Shown in pieces: positions 38,809 through 51,261 of a stretch of DNA of 64,000 nt. Position 1 is the stretch's first letter, and each line of letters opens with the position of its first letter. The notes below the pieces were generated by a model that did not search any database, was not told the DNA's origin, and was given only the letters and a program-made list of their open reading frames with translations. Source of the DNA: an uncultured Treponema sp. (lineage in GTDB: Bacteria; Spirochaetota; Spirochaetia; Treponematales; Treponemataceae); the NCBI GenBank assembly GCA_949300145.1, contig CASGDA010000011.1:1-64000 (forward strand). Reading direction: 5' to 3'. The position numbers and the translations under genes were made by a program.

Positions 38809-41202
38809 ATGGAATTCACACAAGAACAAATCGATGCTCTGACAGTAAATGAAGTTGCGGTTTTAAAAAAAATAGCGGAGGAGCTGGGCATACAGACAAG
38901 CCAGGTTTCCGCTGTTGTCTCCCTTCTGGCGGAAGGGTGTACAGTTCCCTTTATCTCCAGATACCGGAAAGAAAAACACGGCTCCCTGGATGAAGTTCAG
39001 GTACGTAACTGCGAACATTTATTCAAGACTTATACAAACCTCGAAACACGCCGCCTGGAAATAATCCGCGGTATTTTCTCCCAGGGAAAACTTACCCCGC
39101 TGCTTTATGAAAGCGTAACAGCGGCCGCCACCCTTACGGAGCTGGAAGACCTCTGGGCTCCCTTCAAGAAAAAGAAAAAGACACGCGGTATGGCCGCCGC
39201 CGAAAAAGGGCTTGAACCCCTTGCGGATTTCATGCTTGAAAACGACGGAGCCGCCGTCGAAAAGAAAGCCCCGGAATTTATCCGCGTTGACTCCGAAAAC
39301 CCTGAGCTGTCCGTGGAAACGGCTGAGGCAGCCATTCAGGGTGCCAAGGATATAATAGCGGAAAGGATTTCCCAGTCGCCGGAAAACAGGAAGGCGGTTC
39401 TGGACTTATATATGTCCACAGGCGAATTCGCCGTTTCCGGTATAGGCGGGGAAGAAGCAAAAAAAACTTCCGTATACCAGATGTACTGGGACTACAGGGA
39501 ACCCCTCAACCAGATAAAGGCGCACAGGGTTCTCGCGATAAACAGGGGCGAAAGAGACGGACAGCTGGATGTAAAAATAGACATCGACGTAGACGGGGCT
39601 ATTGAACTTCTTGAAAAAAAGAACGCACCCCGGAACTCTTATGTAAAGGATGCGGTAGAAGACGGTCTGGTCCGCCTCCTTTCCCCGGCGGTTGTCCGGG
39701 AAATCCGCGGGAATCTGTCGGATGACGCCGACGACCACGGAATCACTGTTTTCAGCGAAAACCTCAAAAACCTTCTCATGACGCAGCCCATAAAAGGCAC
39801 AAGGGTGCTGGGAATTGATCCCGGAATACGCACCGGCACAAAATGCGCCGCGCTGGACGAGACGGGAAAATACCTCGGCTCTTTCGTCATTTACCAGCAC
39901 CATGCCGATGAAGCCAAGGCGGCCGTCTACGCCGCCCTGAAAAAATACAACGTGCAGCTTGTCGCAATCGGCGGGGGGACAGGGACAAAGGAAGTCCAGG
40001 AAATTGTTTCCCAGGTGATAAGCGAGCGGTGCCCGGAAGTGTCCTACACCGTGGTTGACGAGGACGGGGCTTCCGTTTATTCCGCCAGCGAAATTGCCAG
40101 GGAAGAATTCCCGGATCTTGACCTGACAATCCGCGGGGCGATTTCCATCGGAAGACGCTTGCAGGATCCCCTTTCAGAGCTGGTGAAGATAGATCCCAAG
40201 TCCATAGGTGTCGGATTGTACCAGCACGATGTGAACCAGAAAAAACTGTCGGAAACACTTGATGAGGTTGTAGGCTCCGTTGTGAACAACGTTGGCGTTA
40301 ATTTGAACACGGCAAGCGCGTCCCTCTTAAAATATGTCTCCGGAATAAACGGCACACTGGCGAAAAAAATCACCGCCTACCGTGATGAATCCGGACGGAT
40401 ACCCAGCAGGGCTGATCTGCTGAAGATACCCGGCATGGGCCCCAAAACCTTCGAGCAGTGCGCCGGATTCCTGAAAATACCTGAAAGCGACAATCCTCTG
40501 GACTGCACATGGGTTCATCCGGAAAACTATGCGGCGGGAATGGAAATCTACACCCTGCTCCATAAAGCAGGAGACGCGGGGAACACCACCCTCCCGGATT
40601 CCATAAACAAAGCGGAAAGGGACAGCCTGAAGGAACGTTTCTCTTTGGGGGACGCCACCATCAACGACATAATAAACGACCTGAGGAAACCCAACCGCGA
40701 TCCGAGGGATGACTATCCGAAACCCATAATGCAGAAGGGCGTGCTCACCTTTGAAGACCTTCACGAAGGAATGAAAGTCACCGGAAAAATCAAAAACGTC
40801 GTAGATTTCGGCGCTTTCGTGGACATAGGCATAAAGGAAACCGCCCTCCTCCACCTTTCCGAGATGTCGGACAATTTTGTTTCCGATCCCATGGACGTGG
40901 TGAAAGTCGGTGATGTAAAGGAATGCGTCATCATTTCCCTCGATCCTGACAGACGGCGCATAAGCTTAAGCTGCAAAACCGGACAGGGCGGCAGGACGGG
41001 GGGACAAGGTTCCGCGAAAGCGGCTGTCACCGGCAAGCCGAAAAAAATCGTCGCCGTCCGCCGCTCCGAACCCGGATCAGGGGCGGCAGGGGGCAAATCC
41101 TTTTCCGACAGAAACAGGAACCCCGCCGGCAGAAAACCCTCCCGGAATGACGACGGAATGACCTACAATCCTTTTGCGGATTTGCTTGGGAACAGGAAAT
41201 AA
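38809..41202 (+). CDS. tex: Tex-family RNA-binding transcription accessory protein
   Basis: A 797-residue cytoplasmic protein in the order usual for Tex: an N-terminal helical part starting VAVLKKIAEELGI, a YqgF-like domain (GIDPGIRTGTKCA near residue 345), helix-hairpin-helix units (LKIPGMGPKTFEQCAGFL near residue 545), and an S1 RNA-binding domain near the end (GMKVTGKIKNVVDFGAFVDIG). The tail is basic and glycine-rich. Its role in transcription or RNA metabolism is known only broadly. Length is normal. Confidence 0.95.
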   Translation: MEFTQEQIDALTVNEVAVLKKIAEELGIQTSQVSAVVSLLAEGCTVPFISRYRKEKHGSLDEVQVRNCEHLFKTYTNLETRRLEIIRGIFSQGKLTPLLYESVTAAATLTELEDLWAPFKKKKKTRGMAAAEKGLEPLADFMLENDGAAVEKKAPEFIRVDSENPELSVETAEAAIQGAKDIIAERISQSPENRKAVLDLYMSTGEFAVSGIGGEEAKKTSVYQMYWDYREPLNQIKAHRVLAINRGERDGQLDVKIDIDVDGAIELLEKKNAPRNSYVKDAVEDGLVRLLSPAVVREIRGNLSDDADDHGITVFSENLKNLLMTQPIKGTRVLGIDPGIRTGTKCAALDETGKYLGSFVIYQHHADEAKAAVYAALKKYNVQLVAIGGGTGTKEVQEIVSQVISERCPEVSYTVVDEDGASVYSASEIAREEFPDLDLTIRGAISIGRRLQDPLSELVKIDPKSIGVGLYQHDVNQKKLSETLDEVVGSVVNNVGVNLNTASASLLKYVSGINGTLAKKITAYRDESGRIPSRADLLKIPGMGPKTFEQCAGFLKIPESDNPLDCTWVHPENYAAGMEIYTLLHKAGDAGNTTLPDSINKAERDSLKERFSLGDATINDIINDLRKPNRDPRDDYPKPIMQKGVLTFEDLHEGMKVTGKIKNVVDFGAFVDIGIKETALLHLSEMSDNFVSDPMDVVKVGDVKECVIISLDPDRRRISLSCKTGQGGRTGGQGSAKAAVTGKPKKIVAVRRSEPGSGAAGGKSFSDRNRNPAGRKPSRNDDGMTYNPFADLLGNRK

Positions 41203-41218
41203 GCGCAGGGGTACGTTT

Positions 41219-41998
41219 ATGGGCGGCACGGCAGACTCCGGTTCAAAGCCACGGGAAATAATCCGGGAAGGAATCCAGAAACTTGGGATACCCCCGGAAG
41301 ATTCCGTTTATCTGGACAGAATCCCGGTAACAGGCGGGGAAAAGCTCGCGGAACTCTGCGGAAAATATCTGGAAGAACTTTCCCTGTTTAACAAAGCCTT
41401 CGGGCTGGTCAGCACCGGGACCGAAACCGAAAGGGGAAAAAGCGAGGTGGCCGTAAGGCACATCCTTGACAGCCTCGCTCCCTGGAAAACAATAGCGGAA
41501 AAAATCTGCGGGAACTTTCCGGGCCGGGACTTTTCCACCGACCGGCTGCGCATCGCCGATGCAGGCAGCGGGGCGGGACTTCCGGGAATCCCGCTGGCGT
41601 TTCTTTTCCCCGGAGCCGACTTTGTGCTTATAGAGCGGATGTCAAAACGCTGCTCCTTTCTGCAGAACTGCAGGGCGCTGCTTGGAACAGGGAATATGTC
41701 GGTTCTTAACAGCGGGATAGAAACAGCCGGACAAACGGAAGCCGACACAGTTGTATTCCGGGCTTTCCGCCCTCTTGAAAAGAAAATACTCCGCGCGCTT
41801 TTGCAGCTGCTGAAGCGCAGCGACAGCGAAACCGCCGGAAAAAGTTTTCTCGCGGCGTACAAGGGGAAGGAATCCGCAATAGAAGAGGAAACAAAGAAAA
41901 TGAGGGCGGAGGGATTTGCAGGAAAAATCGACGTAAAAAAAATTTCCGTCCCCTTTCTCCCCGGTGAAGAAAGACACATTGTTTTCATCTCGGAATAA
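41219..41998 (+). CDS. rsmG: 16S rRNA (guanine527-N7)-methyltransferase
   Basis: A 259-residue SAM-dependent methyltransferase. The SAM-binding site IADAGSGAGLPGIPLAFLFPG lies near residue 120, and RHILDSLAP just before it is the usual RsmG element. KRCSFLQN follows. The start ATG 41219 has AGGGG upstream, 16 bases after tex, so the two are likely cotranscribed. It is somewhat longer at the N-terminus than the family average. Confidence 0.92.
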   Translation: MGGTADSGSKPREIIREGIQKLGIPPEDSVYLDRIPVTGGEKLAELCGKYLEELSLFNKAFGLVSTGTETERGKSEVAVRHILDSLAPWKTIAEKICGNFPGRDFSTDRLRIADAGSGAGLPGIPLAFLFPGADFVLIERMSKRCSFLQNCRALLGTGNMSVLNSGIETAGQTEADTVVFRAFRPLEKKILRALLQLLKRSDSETAGKSFLAAYKGKESAIEEETKKMRAEGFAGKIDVKKISVPFLPGEERHIVFISE

Positions 41999-42083: not shown

Positions 42084-42750
42084 TGAAACTTATTATCCAG
42101 ATTCCTTGCTACAACGAGGCTGAGACACTCGAAATAACATTAAATGAATTACTCCTCCCCCCTCGATATTTCAGAGCAAAACAGCGGACATCATAAACCG
42201 ATAGAAGGTATTGATACAATAGAATATCTGATTATAAATGACGGAAGCAGAGACAATACCGTTGAAGTCGCCGTGAATTGGGCGGAGAAAAACGGCAGGA
42301 TCCTGCACGTCGTCAATTTCAAACGGAACAAAGGGCTTGCGAAAGGTTTTGTCGCGGGAATCGACGCCTGTCTGCGGCTCGGCGCCGACATCATTGTCAA
42401 CACGGATGCGGACAACCAATACAGCGGTGACGACATAGCGCAGCTGGTCCGCCCGATAATCGAAAACAAAGCCGACATCGTGATAGGCGAACGGCCGATT
42501 GCAACCACGGCGCACTTTTCCCCGCTGAAGAAAAAACTCCAGCGGCTGGGAAGCTGGGTCGTGCAGAAAGCCTCGGACACCGACATACCCGACGCGCCGA
42601 GCGGCTTCAGGGCATACAGCAGGGACGCCGCGATGCGGCTGAACGTATTCAACGATTACACATACACGCTGGAAACGATAATCCAGGCCGGCAGGGAGAA
42701 AATCGCGATGACGTCTGTCCCCATCAGGACGAACGGAGAACTGCGGCCGT
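42084..42750 (+). pseudogene. Glycosyltransferase family 2, broken
   Basis: The start (ATG 42084, after GAGG) reads MKLIIQIPCYNEAETLEITLNE, the nucleotide-sugar-binding front of a GT2 enzyme, then leaves frame at a run of six C (42157-42162). From there another frame continues: TIEYLIINDGSRDNT, then NTDADNQY, the DxD-like donor site, and DAPSGFRAYSRDAAMRL. Removing one C joins them. Near 42745 the protein stops resembling the family and runs into the antisense of the convergent gtrA, so its C-terminal tail is lost. At least two lesions make it a probable pseudogene. Confidence 0.72.
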
Positions 42751-43032
42751 CGCGCGACATATTTCCACGCATACCCTATCCCGGCGGATATTATCCGCGA
42801 AACCATGTAATACAGCCCGGCGATGTCCGTGCACAGCCACAGGATGAAGGCGTTCACGCCGAGTCCGATGACGCCTATCAAGCAGATAATGGAAGCCGAA
42901 AAAGTTTGTCAGAATAAACAGGGTGCAGAAATCAACGGCGAGCGAAAGACCCGAGACAATGAAATATCTGAAAATCTGGATGAGGATATTGTCCGTCTTT
43001 TCTTTCATCAGTTTGTTTATCAGATTCCGCAT
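42751..43032 (-). pseudogene. GtrA-like membrane protein, broken
   Basis: The front (from ATG 43032) reads IQIFRYFIVSGLSLAVDF and LTNFFGFHYLL, the first membrane helix of GtrA. In a second frame from about 42890 it continues IGVIGLGVNAFILWL and MVSRIISAGIGYAWKYVAR, the last two helices. The second helix and its loop are missing, so an internal deletion with a frameshift lies near 42885-42895. The expected end after IARR is also replaced by sequence shared with the convergent glycosyltransferase. GtrA proteins help flip or present polyprenyl-linked sugars. Probably inactive. Confidence 0.68.
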
Positions 43033-43099: not shown

Positions 43100-44470
43100 C
43101 TACCTGGCTGAAAGCTGCTTTCCGGAATCCACGTTGTCCAGAATACGTTTGAGCGATTCCTTGTTATACAAGTCTATGGGGCGGCCTTCGATAAAACGCC
43201 TGGATTCATCCGAGAAGGAACCGGCGGAGAAGCATATTCCTTTTCCGGCTTTCAAATCCTTAATCTTCCCGTATAAGTCACGCAAAGCCAGCTCCCCGAC
43301 GGTTCCCTGGGAACGGAAAAAGCGGAAAATAACAACATCCGCCCATTTAGGGGTATCGATATCCGTAACAATATCCGTATAGTCACCCTGGACCGATATA
43401 TCAGTTACCTTTACGCGGGCGTTTTTATAGAACTGGGAAACAATTTTCCGGCACAGCATGGTAAAGTCGTTCTGTCCCGACATCAGGTAAACCTGAAGAT
43501 TCCTGTTCTGGTTGAGCTCCTGATAACGGGATATAAGGGCATGGCTGTCCTTATATCCGGGGCTTATTTTCTGAATATCCTTCAGTAAAACCGTCGCCTT
43601 TGACAGCTCCTGCATTTTAATCAGCAAAAGGGCGTATCTGTAACGGAGTTCCACAGCAATGGCGGAAGGGACATTGGGATGCCTCAACCCTATCTCAAAA
43701 TCCTCCACCGCCTTTTCATTCATATCAGCCTGCGAATGAATAATACCGGAATACAGGGCGGCCTGGGGCCCGAAAACCGGATCCGCCCTGAGATGGACAA
43801 AAATCTTCAGGGACTGTTCCATGGAACCGGTTTCATAAAAACACTCAGCCATGGAAAACAGCACTTCCTTGTCCTCCGGAAAACTTTCCAGTACTTTGCT
43901 AAGCAACGACAAGGCTTCCCTGTAGTGGTTCATTTTCTGCAGGACAAGCCCCAGACAACGGCGGGCCTGAATATTGTCAGGATTCGCCGAAAGAGCAATC
44001 CTCAGGGGGGGAACAGCCTTATCATATTCCTTTTGGAGAAAAAACAGGTAACCGAGGTTATAATTAAGCTCCGGATTGGAGGCGTTGTATTTCCTTGCGG
44101 AAAGCAGGCTTTTAAAGGCAGTGTCAAAACGCTTCAACTTTATGGCGCAGATACCATGCCGGAGGAAGCATTCAAATTCATTTATTGCGCCGGGATGGGT
44201 CGGAATTAAATTCATCAGTGAACTGTAGGCTCCAAGGGCCTTCTCCCAGTTCTGTTCCTCATAATATAAATCCCCTATGGAAGAAAGGGCCTGGATATCC
44301 CGGGGATTCTGAGACAGCTTTTGAGTCGCGCTCTTTATGATGGCCGACCGGTCTCTTCGCAGAGGCTTTTTATCTGTAGATCCGTCTTTCTTTTTCGTAA
44401 GTAAAAGCATAAGCAGAGAAGCCAACGCCAACCCGAAAAGAACAGAAACAATTGTAATGGTAGAATTCAT
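43100..44470 (-). CDS. Membrane-anchored TPR protein with Mrr/restriction-endonuclease-like C-terminus
   Basis: A 456-residue protein. An N-terminal membrane helix (TIVSVLFGLALASLLMLLL) is followed by a basic stretch and about eight tetratricopeptide units, for example NWEKALGAYSSLM and KEYDKAVPPLRIALSANPDN. The last 130 residues resemble a degenerate or specialised Mrr-type nuclease fold: WADVVIFRFFRSQGTVGELALRDLYGKIKDLKAGKGICFSAG and FIEGRPIDLYNKESL. The Q-T-V-G-E element with the later K is a restriction-endonuclease-like pattern. A TTGACA/CATAAT promoter ends close to the ATG. What it binds or cuts, if anything, is unknown. Confidence 0.8.
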   Translation of the reverse strand: MNSTITIVSVLFGLALASLLMLLLTKKKDGSTDKKPLRRDRSAIIKSATQKLSQNPRDIQALSSIGDLYYEEQNWEKALGAYSSLMNLIPTHPGAINEFECFLRHGICAIKLKRFDTAFKSLLSARKYNASNPELNYNLGYLFFLQKEYDKAVPPLRIALSANPDNIQARRCLGLVLQKMNHYREALSLLSKVLESFPEDKEVLFSMAECFYETGSMEQSLKIFVHLRADPVFGPQAALYSGIIHSQADMNEKAVEDFEIGLRHPNVPSAIAVELRYRYALLLIKMQELSKATVLLKDIQKISPGYKDSHALISRYQELNQNRNLQVYLMSGQNDFTMLCRKIVSQFYKNARVKVTDISVQGDYTDIVTDIDTPKWADVVIFRFFRSQGTVGELALRDLYGKIKDLKAGKGICFSAGSFSDESRRFIEGRPIDLYNKESLKRILDNVDSGKQLSAR

Positions 44471-44558: not shown

Positions 44559-45605
44559 ATGGATTCAGGTATGATAGGAATAAAACTTGCGGATAATAAA
44601 TTTTTCCCGATAATGAGGGCGGGCGTAGACGGCAGCAAAACGCTGGAATTGACTACTGTCAGGGAAAACCAAACCAGCGTTCAGATAAATCTTTACCGGT
44701 CAAAAGACAGTTCCCCGAATCAAACGATAGACAATGCTGAATATATCGGAACTCTTTTTATAGAAGACATTTCCGAAAAACCCGCGGGGGAACCTACTGT
44801 TGAATTGACAATCAGGATAGACAGAAACAATGATCTTGCGGCGGAAGCCGTGGACCTGGATTCCGGCAACAGCCAGAGCCTGAATGTGTCCCTTAAAACA
44901 ATCGATCAGACGACATTCCCCTCCCTTCCGGATTTTGACATCACAGAATTTGAAAGCAGCAACTTTAACTCGATACCGGAAACGGAAAGCGTGGACTTCT
45001 CTTCGGACGGGGACTTTATCCCGGATTCCTTTCAGGATACGGACCTTGACAACGACCGGACCCACAATGTGCCGGACGGCTTATATGATTCCTCCGGAAC
45101 AAAACACGGGAAAGACAGAAAAGGTATTTTCCTTCCTGCATGGCTGTGTGTATTGATACTCGTAGTCGGAATCGCGGCTTTGTCCGCCGCCCTGATTTTC
45201 GCATGGCAACTCTTTTTTGCGGACAAGACCGGCGCAACGGAACAGACCGCGGTTATCGTGGAACAGCCGGAACCTGTTCCGGTTGAAACGGAGCGGCAGT
45301 TGCCGCCGCCTTCAGAGCCGGAACCTGTGGCCGCGGAAGAGGAAGCAGAGCCGACTCCTCCTCCGGTTTCTGAACCGGAGCCCGTTGTTGTGGAGGAAGC
45401 AGAGCCTGCGCCTCCGAAGGAACCGGAACCTGCCCCGGAGACAGAGAATGTGTTCTACCACATAAAATGGGGTGACACCCTTTGGGATCTGGCGGAAACT
45501 TATTACAGGAATCCCTGGAAATACAAGTATATCGCACGGTATAACGACATTAAAAACCCGAATTTAATTATTGCCGGCAGATATCTGGTAATTCCTGCGG
45601 AATAA
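44559..45605 (+). CDS. Membrane-anchored LysM-domain protein
   Basis: A 348-residue protein. The N-terminal 200 residues are acidic, with no signal peptide. One membrane segment follows near residues 195-220 (LPAWLCVLILVVGIAALSAAL), then a Glu/Pro-rich linker containing repeated EPEPV units, and a C-terminal LysM domain (HIKWGDTLWDLAETYYRNPWKYKYIARYN) that binds peptidoglycan. AGGAGG precedes the ATG. It lies 19 bases upstream of a lytic transglycosylase gene, so it is likely part of cell-wall turnover or anchoring. Confidence 0.85.
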   Translation: MDSGMIGIKLADNKFFPIMRAGVDGSKTLELTTVRENQTSVQINLYRSKDSSPNQTIDNAEYIGTLFIEDISEKPAGEPTVELTIRIDRNNDLAAEAVDLDSGNSQSLNVSLKTIDQTTFPSLPDFDITEFESSNFNSIPETESVDFSSDGDFIPDSFQDTDLDNDRTHNVPDGLYDSSGTKHGKDRKGIFLPAWLCVLILVVGIAALSAALIFAWQLFFADKTGATEQTAVIVEQPEPVPVETERQLPPPSEPEPVAAEEEAEPTPPPVSEPEPVVVEEAEPAPPKEPEPAPETENVFYHIKWGDTLWDLAETYYRNPWKYKYIARYNDIKNPNLIIAGRYLVIPAE

Positions 45606-45624: not shown

Positions 45625-47700
45625 ATGCGAAACCTCTTTGTTCTCCTGCTCTCCATCTGCACCGCATTCTCGGCGCTTCCTTCCTGCACAAACGGTTCTT
45701 CCGGTGATTTTTCCGTTACAGAAAACATAACACCGGAAGAGGCAAGAACCGCCGCCCTGAAAGACCCGGAAGCGCCTCTTTTTGCAGGTTTCATCCTGCT
45801 TGAAAAAGGAAAGGATGACGCGGCGGAAATCTGTTTTGAAGCGGCAGCCGGTTTGTCCAGAAAAAAGGACGGGCGGCTCAAAACAGACAGCCGCCTCCAG
45901 AAAAAAATCCCCTTCCTGATAAAGGCGGCGGCTTTCTCCGAATTATGCAGTCTCGCAGAGAAAAAATCACGGGAAGCCCCTGAAAGCATTCCCTACGAAA
46001 ACCTGCTCCTGTTCAAACGCATTGTGGAAGGAAGGGAAAAAGCCTTTTACTCCGGGATGGAAGATGTTTCACTGCATCCGACCATGTTCAGCGTGGCTTC
46101 CACAGATTTGGAGGCGGCGGCATTAAGGACGGAAACCGCAGGAATTGAAGCCGGAAACGAAAGCACGGAAGCGGACATAAAAAAAATCCAGAGCCTTGTT
46201 TTAGATAAATTATACGAAGATGCGGCGGAAATCCTTTTCAATCTTATTGCAAAGGACACTGCCGCAAAAGAGGCCCTGCTTTCCTCCAGACAAATTCTCT
46301 CCGCCTGCGGAAGGGCGTTGCTGTATTCCCAGACGAATCCGGAAATTTCCCTGGAAACCCTGGAAAAACTGAAAGAAACACTTGAAAGCACCGGAGAAAC
46401 CGGGAAATCCGCCCCGGAAGCTGAATATATGCTTACATTCTATATGTCCAGGCTTTATTCAAAAATTCCGGGCGGAAAGGAAATCTCCGTAAAACTCATG
46501 GAAAGCTCCGTCTTCATCGCTCCGACAGAACACGACAGCGATATGTCTGTATGGTATCTGTTGGACACAGCCCGCTCCGAAGGAGACAGGGCCCTGCTGG
46601 CCGAAATCGAAAAACAAATCCAGTACTGGAAAAACCCTTCCGCCTTTTCGGATATCCTCTCGTCGCTCATAACATCTCTGACGGCGGCGAAGGATACGGA
46701 AGCCCTCGCCAGGCTGGAGGCTTTTCTGCCGCGGAATGTTCCGGCGGAAATAAGAGAGCGCATTGCGTACATAAACGCCGTGTTTCATCCGGAGGATTCC
46801 CCTGCCCGGCGTGAAAGGCTGGAAACCCTGTATTCCGGCGCCGTAACACCTTACTACAAGGCTATGGCGGCCGCCGGTTTGGATATATCCGCGGACTTAA
46901 AGCTTACCGACCCCTTCGGAGAAGCCGGCCCTTCCACGGCAACAGGGGAAGAATCAGCTTTCAATGAAAAAACAAAAGGCCTTTTCAGAGATCAGGCTGA
47001 AAATCTTATTCAAGGAACCCTCCGGTGGAATATGCCGGAGAAGGCTGTCGCTTTTTTCAGGGCCTTTCCTTACGCCGGCTTTGAGTCCATAAAAAACACG
47101 GCGGAAGAATTCACGCGCAGGGGTTTTTATTCGGATGCGGTTCGTCTGGTTTCCGCGTCCCTGTCATCGATGCCGCATGAAACCCGGAAACACCATACGG
47201 CCCGGAATGAAGTGGCGGAACTATTGAATCCCCGGCCCTGGCGGAACATTGTCGCGGATGCGGTCGCGGAATTCGGGGACGGGAAACTTCTTTCGGAAGA
47301 CCTGGTTTATGCCCTTATAAAGCAGGAAAGCCTGTTCAACCCTGACGCCGTTTCCTATGCGGGTGCCAGCGGATTAACCCAGATTATGGACGCCACCGCG
47401 GAAGAAATCGCTGGGAAACTCCAGACAGAGGAATACGATATTTTTCTTCCCGAATATAATATAAAATTCGGCACCTTCTACCTGTCCGAAATGCTGCGCA
47501 GGCTTGACGGAAAGCTCATTCCCGCCCTGTGCGCTTACAATGCGGGTATATCCAGGGTCAGGGAATGGCTGAAAGTTTTCAATCCACGGGAGGATTCCTA
47601 CGGTCTGTTTCTGGAGGCGATTCCATACGATGAAACAAGAAATTATGCCAAAAATATTTTCACATTTATGAATTATTATTCCGCCTTATACGACGACTAA
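45625..47700 (+). CDS. Lytic transglycosylase lipoprotein with C-terminal SLT domain
   Basis: A 691-residue envelope protein with a signal sequence and lipobox (LSICTAFSALPSC near residue 22). A long helical region of TPR-like or superhelical character precedes the SLT domain at about residues 560-680: VYALIKQESLFNPDAVSYAGASGLTQIM, with the catalytic glutamate in KQES, and ALCAYNAGISRVREW. The layout is that of Slt70-like murein transglycosylases, which cut glycan strands by forming 1,6-anhydro ends. It follows the LysM gene closely. Confidence 0.9.
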   Translation: MRNLFVLLLSICTAFSALPSCTNGSSGDFSVTENITPEEARTAALKDPEAPLFAGFILLEKGKDDAAEICFEAAAGLSRKKDGRLKTDSRLQKKIPFLIKAAAFSELCSLAEKKSREAPESIPYENLLLFKRIVEGREKAFYSGMEDVSLHPTMFSVASTDLEAAALRTETAGIEAGNESTEADIKKIQSLVLDKLYEDAAEILFNLIAKDTAAKEALLSSRQILSACGRALLYSQTNPEISLETLEKLKETLESTGETGKSAPEAEYMLTFYMSRLYSKIPGGKEISVKLMESSVFIAPTEHDSDMSVWYLLDTARSEGDRALLAEIEKQIQYWKNPSAFSDILSSLITSLTAAKDTEALARLEAFLPRNVPAEIRERIAYINAVFHPEDSPARRERLETLYSGAVTPYYKAMAAAGLDISADLKLTDPFGEAGPSTATGEESAFNEKTKGLFRDQAENLIQGTLRWNMPEKAVAFFRAFPYAGFESIKNTAEEFTRRGFYSDAVRLVSASLSSMPHETRKHHTARNEVAELLNPRPWRNIVADAVAEFGDGKLLSEDLVYALIKQESLFNPDAVSYAGASGLTQIMDATAEEIAGKLQTEEYDIFLPEYNIKFGTFYLSEMLRRLDGKLIPALCAYNAGISRVREWLKVFNPREDSYGLFLEAIPYDETRNYAKNIFTFMNYYSALYDD

Positions 47701-47778
47701 ACTAAACTGAAAAAAAACTGAAAAAACAGCCGGAATAATCCGAAAATCTTTAGGATAAAGGCTTTTTTGGGAGGAGAA

Positions 47779-48642
47779 ATGAACATTCTGGAAGCGTTTA
47801 TACTGGGAATCATACAAGGAATTTCAGAATTCTTACCGATTTCAAGTTCAGGGCATCTGAGCATCTTTTCAGAATTTATGGATCTCAGCAATGTACCGAT
47901 ACTTTTTGATATACTTCTGCACGTTGCCACTTTATTTTCGGTTTTGATTGTTTTCCGGAAAAAAATATCGGGGCTGATTGTCTCCCTATGCAAATTCATC
48001 TCATGGCACGCAGATAAAAAAGACAGGAAAACCGCCGGAACGGAAGGGGACGCCGGAACACAGGAAATTCCGGACGAAAACGTGGTGAATGACGTGCGCA
48101 CGATTCTTGCCCTCATCACGGCGACGCTGGCCACAGGAATAACGGGATTCATTCTGAAAGACTACGCTGAAACCCTGAAACCCGTTTTTATCTCCGTTCT
48201 GTTTATAATAACCGGCATCCTTCTGGTTTTATCCGAAAGAATAAAACATAAAAACCCCACGGAAACCGTGAACTACAGACAGGCTCTGGTAATCGGCCTC
48301 GCGCAGGGAATCGGGGTTCTTCCCGGCTTGTCCCGTTCCGGTGTAACGATTTCCGCAGCCCTTTGTTCCGGGGTCAAACGAACCTCCGCCGGGGAATTCT
48401 CCTTTTTGCTGTCAATTCCGGCGATAGTCGCCGCCTTTATTTTTGAGGTGAAAGATGCCGATACTTTAATGGGAACCGTCCCGCTGTCGTCCCTGGCAGC
48501 CGGCATGGTTTCGGCTTTTACAGCGGGACTTCTTTCACTGAAATTCCTGCTGCACTTGATTAAACGCGGAAAACTCAGCTGGTTCGCCTGTTATTTGATA
48601 CCCGCCGGACTTATCCTGACCGTGTATTTCATGTTTCAATAA
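47779..48642 (+). CDS. uppP: Undecaprenyl-diphosphatase
   Basis: A 287-residue inner-membrane protein. GIIQGISEFLPISSSGHL at the N-terminus carries the catalytic glutamate region, and GLAQGIGVLPGLSRSGVTISAALC near residue 180 is the second BacA/UppP signature with its arginine and serine. It recycles the undecaprenyl lipid carrier for wall synthesis. GGAGG and ATG 47779 define the start. A hydrophilic loop near residues 75-105 is somewhat long. Confidence 0.94.
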   Translation: MNILEAFILGIIQGISEFLPISSSGHLSIFSEFMDLSNVPILFDILLHVATLFSVLIVFRKKISGLIVSLCKFISWHADKKDRKTAGTEGDAGTQEIPDENVVNDVRTILALITATLATGITGFILKDYAETLKPVFISVLFIITGILLVLSERIKHKNPTETVNYRQALVIGLAQGIGVLPGLSRSGVTISAALCSGVKRTSAGEFSFLLSIPAIVAAFIFEVKDADTLMGTVPLSSLAAGMVSAFTAGLLSLKFLLHLIKRGKLSWFACYLIPAGLILTVYFMFQ

Positions 48643-48708
48643 CCTGCAGTTACATAACGCCGGGTGGAACAGAAAAACAATTTTCCGCATAACTTTCTGG
48701 AGATTTTG

Positions 48709-51261
48709 ATGGCTGTTTTTTCTTCAAACAAAAGATTCAACGGTGCAGCTGCCGTTTATATTTTCGCCTCGCTGCTGGTCATAGCGGCGGCGTTTCTGAC
48801 TTACTCCCTGCTGCTCACGGTGTTAACCTACGGAAATGCGGACAACATTGTGGCCCGCCCCGGCCGCTTCCTGTTTTCCGTTTACGGATTTTCCTCCTTT
48901 TTGATACCGGTATATCTGTTTGCCTGCGCCGTCATCCTGCTCATACCGGGATTGAATTTCCGTTCATGCTTTTTGCTGTCCACTTCCATAATCCCCTTTT
49001 TCACAGCCTACGGGGGAGAGCTTCTCATAAGGAAAACCTCGTCGATAACGGGAGCCGCCCTGCTGTCGAATATTATTTTCACAGGGCTCCTGATCTCCGT
49101 CGTTCTCGCGGTAATCACGGAGTATCTCCTGCTTTATCATGCGGCCCTGATCATCGAGAAAAAAATTTCCTCCCTGCACTTTCAGTCCCCCCTGAAAACT
49201 CTGAAAACCCTGAAAAAAGGAAAAGGGGTTCTCCCCCGGAAACAAAAAACACTTTCCGCCGCGAAACCCGCCGCGCAGAAAACCGCCGGAGAGCAGCCCC
49301 GCCCGGAGAATACCGGCAGCCGTATAACCGGAGGACAGGACGGAAGCATTCCTGAAAAGGATATGCAGGAATTCCCGGACAGAAGCGTTGAAGAACCATG
49401 GCAGCCGGCAGGAGGAATAATCCCGGAGGCGGAAAATCCGCTCCAAGACAGAGACGCAGAAAGCGGTATGCAGGTGCAGGACAGCCCGGAATCCATGGAA
49501 ATACAGGAAACTTCCTTCCCGGTTCCGGAAGCTTTTCAGGATGCGGAAGAAGAAGAAACAGTGCCAGAAGAAACGGAAACCGGTGTTTTTGAAGACCTTG
49601 AAGACCCGGACACTGAGGATTCAGAACCGGAAGAATATTCCGCGGATACCGAAATACCCCCGGGATTATTCGACGGCTACATCGCCGGAAATTTCTCCAT
49701 TATAGACACGGAAAACCGGGATGAAGAGAGCGCCGCGGAACCCGGAACGCAGGCGCAGGCCATTCCTGAAAATCCGGCGGATATCCCGGTAAAACATGAA
49801 GGAAATCCCCCGGTTAAAAAATCCGGCAGGCTCAGATATCAAATCGACAGCGGTATATTGAACACATATCCGGACGGAGAATATTGGGTCATTGATGAAC
49901 ACACCCACCGTTCTGCGGCGGCGTTAAAAGAAACATTGAACGAATTCAATATCCAGGCGGACGTAACGGGCATCAGGAAAGGCCCCGTCATAACAATGTT
50001 TGAAATTCTCCCGGCTCCCGGAGTCAAGCTTTCAAGGATTGTCGGGCTGCAGGACAACATCGCATTGCGGCTGGCGGCCTCCAGCGTCCGTATAGTGGCC
50101 CCCATTCCCGGCAAGCACGCCGTCGGAATAGAAGTGCCGAACGACAAACGCTCCATTGTCAGTTTCAAGGAACTGATTGAAACCGACAACCCTTCCTCAA
50201 AAAAAATGGGAATCCCTGTCATGCTCGGCAAGGACATAACCGGAGAAGCCCAGATTATAGACTTAACCGCCATGCCTCATCTGCTGATAGCCGGTTCGAC
50301 CGGTTCGGGTAAATCCGTATGCGTCAACTCCATCATTCTCTCGATTTTATACCGGAAAGCCCCTGACGAGGTGAAACTCATTCTGATAGACCCCAAGGTT
50401 GTGGAATTAAAGCTCTACAATGACATCGGGCACCTGCTTTCCCCCGTCATAACAGAGCCGAAAAAAGCTTTTCAAGCCCTCCAGTACAGCCTATGCGAAA
50501 TGGAACGCCGTTATGCGGTTCTGGACGGAATGGGGGTCAGAAACATAAAGGAATACAACAAGCGTATACAGGAGCGGAACATAGCCGCGGAAAAACTGCC
50601 GTATATTGTCATCATAATCGACGAATTCGCGGATTTGATGGCGACCACAGGGAAAGAGCTTGAATCCACGGTGGCCCGTCTTGCGGCCATGAGCCGGGCG
50701 GTAGGCATCCACCTTGTACTCGCAACCCAGAGGCCTTCAATCGACGTGATAACAGGCCTGATCAAAGCCAACATCCCCAGCCGCATCGCCTTCATGGTCG
50801 CATCGAAAATGGACAGCCGGATTATCATCGATCAGGTCGGAGCCGAAAAATTACTCGGCAGGGGGGATATGCTCTATTCAAGCGTAACGGATCCGTTCCC
50901 CGTGAGGATTCAGGGGGCCTTTGTCTCGGACGAAGAAGTTGAAAGGGTTGTGGAACAGGTGAAAACCTTCGGCGAGCCGGAATACATAGACGATGAAATA
51001 TTCGTCGATGATGACGACGACGCATCCCTTGAGGATTCTTTCTTCTCCGAAGGGGAAGACCCTCTCTACGAAAAGGCCCTTGATATTGTGCTTGCGGCCG
51101 GAAAAGCCTCCGCGTCATACATACAACGGAGACTCAAAATCGGATACAACCGGGCCGCACGCCTGGTGGAAGAAATGGAGATGAGGGGAATTGTAGGCCC
51201 GGCCAACGGTTCAAAACCGAGGGAAGTCATCCATATCCCGGAAAGACAGACCTCCGGTTGA
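48709..51261 (+). CDS. ftsK: FtsK/SpoIIIE-family DNA translocase
   Basis: An 850-residue protein. The N-terminal 160 residues hold about four membrane helices. A long acidic, low-complexity linker rich in Glu/Pro/Asp follows (residues 190-370). Next come the beta region (MFEILPAPGVKLSRIVGL), Walker A GSTGSGKSVCVNS, Walker B IVIIIDEFADLM, and a C-terminal winged-helix gamma domain (YIQRRLKIGYNRAARLVEEME) that reads KOPS-type sites. It moves chromosome ends at division. The start at ATG 48709 has TGGAGA five bases upstream; GTG 48664 would add 15 residues. Confidence 0.94.
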   Translation: MAVFSSNKRFNGAAAVYIFASLLVIAAAFLTYSLLLTVLTYGNADNIVARPGRFLFSVYGFSSFLIPVYLFACAVILLIPGLNFRSCFLLSTSIIPFFTAYGGELLIRKTSSITGAALLSNIIFTGLLISVVLAVITEYLLLYHAALIIEKKISSLHFQSPLKTLKTLKKGKGVLPRKQKTLSAAKPAAQKTAGEQPRPENTGSRITGGQDGSIPEKDMQEFPDRSVEEPWQPAGGIIPEAENPLQDRDAESGMQVQDSPESMEIQETSFPVPEAFQDAEEEETVPEETETGVFEDLEDPDTEDSEPEEYSADTEIPPGLFDGYIAGNFSIIDTENRDEESAAEPGTQAQAIPENPADIPVKHEGNPPVKKSGRLRYQIDSGILNTYPDGEYWVIDEHTHRSAAALKETLNEFNIQADVTGIRKGPVITMFEILPAPGVKLSRIVGLQDNIALRLAASSVRIVAPIPGKHAVGIEVPNDKRSIVSFKELIETDNPSSKKMGIPVMLGKDITGEAQIIDLTAMPHLLIAGSTGSGKSVCVNSIILSILYRKAPDEVKLILIDPKVVELKLYNDIGHLLSPVITEPKKAFQALQYSLCEMERRYAVLDGMGVRNIKEYNKRIQERNIAAEKLPYIVIIIDEFADLMATTGKELESTVARLAAMSRAVGIHLVLATQRPSIDVITGLIKANIPSRIAFMVASKMDSRIIIDQVGAEKLLGRGDMLYSSVTDPFPVRIQGAFVSDEEVERVVEQVKTFGEPEYIDDEIFVDDDDDASLEDSFFSEGEDPLYEKALDIVLAAGKASASYIQRRLKIGYNRAARLVEEMEMRGIVGPANGSKPREVIHIPERQTSG

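Follow-up and report, generated by a model that had tools for sequence, protein, structure and literature searches.

The window analyzed here is a stretch of 64,000 nucleotides from an uncultured Treponema sp., and on its minus strand, at positions 43100–44470, lies an intact open reading frame with an ATG start and no internal stop, which encodes a protein of 456 aa. Three parts can be recognized in this protein: an N-terminal membrane helix (residues 2–25; 44396–44467, minus strand), a solenoid of tetratricopeptide repeats (TPRs; residues about 38–330; 43481–44359, minus strand), and a C-terminal domain with the PD-(D/E)XK fold of Mrr-type nucleases (residues 339–444; 43139–43456, minus strand), in which, as described below, the active site is replaced. 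The TPRs were matched by many Pfam models, several of them above cutoff and the best with an E-value of 4.6e-19, and Mrr_cat (PF04471) was matched at residues 339–443 with an E-value of 8.8e-7, scoring 29.5 bits where the cutoff is 21. The same model was matched at E ≤ 1 by all 30 orthologous C-terminal domains compared with it, and the second Pfam match of the domain, NA-iREase1 (PF22722), stayed below its own cutoff.

The AlphaFold2 model of the whole protein, built with 30 orthologs, has a pLDDT of 89 and contains the helix at residues 2–25, the TPR solenoid, and an alpha/beta C-terminal domain, which reached a pLDDT of 90 and a pTM of 0.85 when it was modeled by itself. Since TPR proteins dominated the matches when the full-length model was used in the fold search, the C-terminal domain was searched separately with Foldseek, and its best PDB matches included the restriction endonucleases MspJI (E 5.9e-6) and AspBHI (6.9e-5), followed by AF1548 (4.0e-4) and EndoMS (2.8e-3), with the RNA polymerase subunit RPB5 also among them. 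These matches come from the fold search, as a search of the PDB sequences with a profile of the C-terminal domain returned nothing significant. The original prediction, i.e., a membrane anchor followed by TPRs and an Mrr-like end, was thus right in its layout, and the structural match to a non-nuclease fold that it named as its refutation was not obtained.

To judge whether this fold could still cut DNA, the domain was aligned by HMM with genuine Mrr enzymes encoded in other spirochete genomes, where the catalytic stretch D-V-I-Y-I-Q-A-K-R of the latter faces D378-V-V-I-F-R383-F-F385-R386 of the protein in the window. Among 112 distinct ortholog reading frames, the position of the catalytic lysine (F385 here) is occupied by I, Y, F, V, N, or L in every case and by lysine in none, and that of the Gln/Glu residue is an arginine in 111 (R383 here), so that the Asp-x-Gln/Glu-x-Lys site which the original prediction proposed to look for is missing its second half. 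No ortholog-specific candidate was seen for a lysine relocated elsewhere in the fold; the catalytic lysine is likewise absent from the Borrelia copies and from a second family of paralogs, both discussed later. At the same time, R386, G392, E393, and R397 are invariant in the 112 orthologs and form an R...GE...R patch. The replacement of the Q-x-K half together with the invariance of this patch indicates that the fold is strongly constrained for something other than cleavage, and the reading of the C-terminal domain as a catalytically dead pseudo-nuclease is, at the level of sequence, well supported.

An active membrane-bound nuclease serving defense or DNA sensing, the latter being one of the options offered originally, is accordingly very improbable. 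It could draw on the Mrr_cat match, on the structural resemblance to Mrr-type restriction enzymes, and on D366, an acidic position near the first catalytic aspartate that is D or E in 112/112 orthologs; against it stand the loss of the lysine in all orthologs and of the Gln/Glu in nearly all of them, on which ground it was rejected. The vertical retention of the ortholog at a conserved locus does not follow the pattern of a defense island either. A defense system was also discarded as a candidate in its own right, as PADLOC gave no support, the library of known defense families returning just a weak, generic TPR match (E 0.0021). Of the options put forward at first, the loss of the active site across the orthologs favors that of a catalytically dead scaffold, and we are highly confident that the protein has, by itself, a catalytically dead, membrane-anchored architecture of scaffold type.

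Regarding the orientation of the protein in the membrane, the segment before the helix contains no lysine or arginine in 111/112 orthologs, and the 15 residues after it contain a mean of 5.2, with the asymmetry having the same sense in 112/112. Under the positive-inside rule, this pattern points to an N-out/C-in anchor rather than to a signal peptide, and it predicts that the TPRs and the pseudo-nuclease domain reside in the cytoplasm, contrary to the cell-surface-facing location that had been envisaged as an alternative. Membership in the flagellar collar, which the TPRs had suggested at first, was dismissed for the same reason, the predicted location being the cytoplasm and not the periplasm. 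A TPR solenoid joined to a dead nuclease domain at the cytoplasmic face of the membrane is most naturally taken as a docking scaffold.

The architecture occurs far beyond chance, as full-length orthologs are spread throughout the order of the window, Treponematales, and relatives are present in the phylum at large. The search for relatives found orthologs in 39/39 genera at E ≤ 0.001, the best ones being full-length. The survey was then extended to 296 Spirochaetota genomes, in which the presence of the C-terminal domain was compared with that of the flagellar rod family PF00460. An initial count with a whole-protein profile, positive in 277/296 genomes, was replaced by the count of the C-terminal domain because it included genomes with TPR-only matches, such as G039, and rod genes were preferred to FliF as the flagellar marker because FliF was discordant in two genomes: G038, which has rod genes and no FliF match, and G278 of family f10. 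The latter carries no rod genes and a partial FliF-type match in a 475 aa frame, which may be what remains of a flagellum or belong to a secretion ring of another kind.

In the class Spirochaetia, the C-terminal domain was found in 102 of the 103 genomes that have rod genes and in 0 of the 15 that lack them, the sole exception being G039, a flagellated genome, 99% complete, in which the domain had no match. Fisher's test on these 118 genomes gives p of about 4e-18, a value to be read with the relatedness of the genomes in mind, because of which the honest count is that of three separate clades of loss (families f13, f10, and part of f3) and not of 20 independent events. Five further genomes, of family f3, are negative for both FliF and rod genes and have matches at the TPR level only, and these same genomes retain cell-wall transpeptidases; flagella-less f3 and f10 genomes without the pseudo-Mrr family have 2 to 5 transpeptidase matches each. 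As f3 and f10 keep these enzymes, the loss of the pseudo-Mrr family follows that of flagella better than that of the wall. In f13, 7 of the 12 genomes without the family are also devoid of any transpeptidase-domain protein. Beyond the class, 154/178 flagellated genomes match the C-terminal domain at E ≤ 1e-4 with weaker scores, and part of these matches could be true Mrr enzymes, while the other 24 have no match. Some distant spirochetes (loci L160, L164, L178, L179, and L180) have frames of 525–568 aa with weaker Mrr-like C-terminal domains, a few of which adjoin each other in one genome (G113:C45), which suggests further divergent paralogs.

The surroundings of the gene are also conserved. 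Divergently from it, at 44559–45605 (plus strand), is encoded a protein with an N-terminus resembling the substrate-binding beta domain of Hsp70, a membrane helix, and a C-terminal LysM domain (PF00012, PF01476). The N-terminus appears as a solo domain that matches positions 418–498 of the PF00012 profile, and the protein is an unusual tie between a peptide-binding domain, likely cytoplasmic, and the cell wall. It is followed, all on the plus strand, by an SLT lytic transglycosylase (45625–47700; PF01464, E 1.3e-28), by the undecaprenyl-diphosphatase UppP/BacA (47767–48642; PF02673, E 1.2e-70), and by an FtsK-like DNA translocase (48664–51261), whose homologs were seen in 26/80 loci with a median identity of 69%. 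The opposite flank of the block holds rsmG, or gidB (41174–41998, plus strand; PF02527, E 3.1e-30), with homologs in 25/80 loci. This order, namely the divergent Hsp70-like/LysM gene, then SLT, UppP, and FtsK, with rsmG opposite, recurs in many Treponematales, and the Hsp70-like/LysM homolog was found in at least 48/80 loci and SLT in at least 39/80, both lower bounds because many contigs are short. A strict link of the Hsp70-like/LysM partner to flagella was ruled out, as it persists in flagella-less f10 genomes. At 42144–43032, a family 2 glycosyltransferase frame on the plus strand overlaps GtrA-like fragments in two frames of the minus strand, a pair that looks frameshifted, degenerate, or misassembled. 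Neither the conserved neighborhood nor the link to flagella formed part of the original prediction.

The same block is present in one Borrelia genome, with FtsK in the same order, UppP, SLT, an Hsp70-domain-like membrane protein in which LysM is not visible, and a divergent gene for a TPR-pseudo-Mrr protein that shares 26% identity with that of the window over nearly its full length (E 6e-46). The SLT of the window matches its positional counterpart in Borrelia with an E-value of 1e-28, and this counterpart corresponds to BB0259, as a published BB0259 primer matches it with two mismatches. BB0259, or LTase-Bb, is the flagellar lytic transglycosylase of Borrelia (PMC8517470). Counting genes upward from BB0259 and downward from flhF (BB0270), flhG (BB0269), and fapA (BB0267) (PMC11607428), we infer that the Borrelia TPR-pseudo-Mrr gene is BB0261. 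The open-licence literature that was searched contained no mention of BB0261, none of BB0260 in the context of Borrelia, and no functional study of BB0260/BB0261 or TP0916/TP0471.

In the genome that we take to be that of T. pallidum (G021), both paralogs are kept and the conserved block is absent. The second paralog, a membrane-TPR-pseudo-Mrr protein of about 24% identity, was noticed at locus L111 (7270–8763, plus strand; G000:C2), divergent from two TPR genes and followed by phosphoesterase-like, ParB-like, and PP2C/anti-sigma partner-switching genes, whose functions were assigned by eye. In G021 (locus L113, 6737–9247), the gene divergent from this paralog encodes a TPR protein, presumably TP0470, in which identical copies of EAEEARRK follow one another over a long stretch.

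Taken together, these data lead us to propose a mechanism in which the single N-terminal helix, oriented N-out and C-in, would tie the TPR solenoid and the dead Mrr-type domain to the inner membrane, where protein partners may dock on the TPRs and on the invariant Arg/Gly-Glu/Arg surface, with DNA or some other ligand as a further possibility. The role of this assembly in flagellated spirochetes would lie in the building or placing of the periplasmic flagella, and its partners would probably be the divergently encoded Hsp70-like/LysM protein and the adjoining lytic transglycosylase, the enzyme that makes an opening in the wall for the flagellar hook. The scaffold function and the partners are inferred, and for the flagellar role the argument is one of co-occurrence and synteny. 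We give about even chances to the protein being a pseudo-nuclease scaffold that is anchored in the membrane, faces the cytoplasm, and is used to build or place these flagella, a judgment that takes into account the points against it: the losses amount to three clades, the UppP, FtsK, and LysM neighbors suit a role in the cell wall or in division just as well, G039 is flagellated without a matched domain, 24/178 flagellated genomes beyond the class are unmatched, the Hsp70-like/LysM partner is kept in flagella-less f10 genomes, and T. pallidum keeps the gene and not the block. According to a broader statement, a dead restriction-endonuclease fold would have been taken up, early in the spirochetes, into the machinery by which periplasmic flagella are assembled or positioned, with a structural or regulatory function there. 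It would then be an unrecognized and nearly universal component on the cytoplasmic side of the inner membrane, with a link to the wall-opening flagellar enzyme. This is put forward tentatively, as something we would sooner doubt than assert.

Two other functions have to be weighed against the flagellar scaffold. With a layout like that of LapB and with UppP, FtsK, a LysM protein, and SLT as its neighbors, the protein might instead be a scaffold of the cell envelope or of division that coordinates wall synthesis and remodeling, and the correlation with flagella would then be secondary, since the flagella-less lineages also changed shape and wall, as the f13 genomes devoid of transpeptidase-domain proteins illustrate. 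The neighborhood as such, in which UppP and FtsK accompany the flagellar transglycosylase, would suit either role; the co-loss with flagella, along with the transpeptidases that two of the three clades without flagella retain, argues for the flagellar one, as does the flagellar nature of the adjoining transglycosylase in Borrelia (PMC8517470), and we regard the envelope or division scaffold as rather unlikely. Less likely still is that the dead nuclease domain would bind DNA through its invariant arginines and keep the chromosome (or a pole region) attached to the inner membrane. The restriction-endonuclease fold, the arginines R386 and R397 (both invariant) and R383 (nearly so), the predicted cytoplasmic side, and the nearby FtsK agree with such a tether, yet one of these conserved arginines sits at the position of the catalytic pocket and may be structural, and if the protein tethered the chromosome in general, its disappearance along with flagella would be unexpected.

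Periplasmic flagella define the spirochetes, a group to which the agents of syphilis and Lyme disease belong. A recent cryo-tomography study reports that parts of the surroundings of their motor remain unassigned (PMC11750108). In this context, a near-universal and apparently uncharacterized protein that is missing where flagella are missing, and whose gene lies beside that of a flagellar transglycosylase, is a concrete candidate, and the anchor-TPR-pseudo-Mrr protein is probably an unrecognized scaffold for the internal flagella and not a DNA-cutting enzyme. If true, it would offer a clear instance in which a restriction-endonuclease fold has been put to new use as a part without enzymatic function.

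Among known systems, E. coli LapB (YciM) has an N-terminal membrane anchor, cytoplasmic TPRs, and a rubredoxin-like metal domain at its C-terminus; the window protein shares the first two features, as far as its predicted topology goes, and ends instead in a pseudo-Mrr domain, with a score of 28.6 against the LapB model cutoff of 363. The collar proteins FlcA–FlcD (PMC8609358, PMC11750108) resemble it in having TPRs (FlcA, FlcB) and in being confined to flagellated spirochetes, the tracking of flagella having been scored here on the pseudo-Mrr domain and rod genes; unlike them, it is predicted from its charge pattern to be cytoplasmic, without the signal peptide or N-in anchor of a periplasmic protein, and it scores 46.9 on the FlcA model, whose cutoff is 300. 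BB0259 (PMC8517470) is encoded in the same conserved block and is a candidate functional neighbor only, being a periplasmic enzyme and no homolog. With the Mrr/MspJI-type PD-(D/E)XK restriction endonucleases, the C-terminal 105 residues have in common the fold and a detectable sequence family, while Q-x-K has become R-F-(I/Y/F) and a membrane anchor and TPRs are fused to the domain, so that it is no restriction enzyme. Parallels in terms of catalysis are the RPB5 jaw domain and NA-iREase1, which also keep a restriction-endonuclease fold without activity, although the membrane-TPR architecture and the lineage are different here and the NA-iREase1 cutoff is not reached. Inactive nuclease folds are thus already known, and the domain described here is, by fold, one of the Mrr/PD-(D/E)XK group and, judged by its aligned catalytic positions, not an Mrr nuclease.
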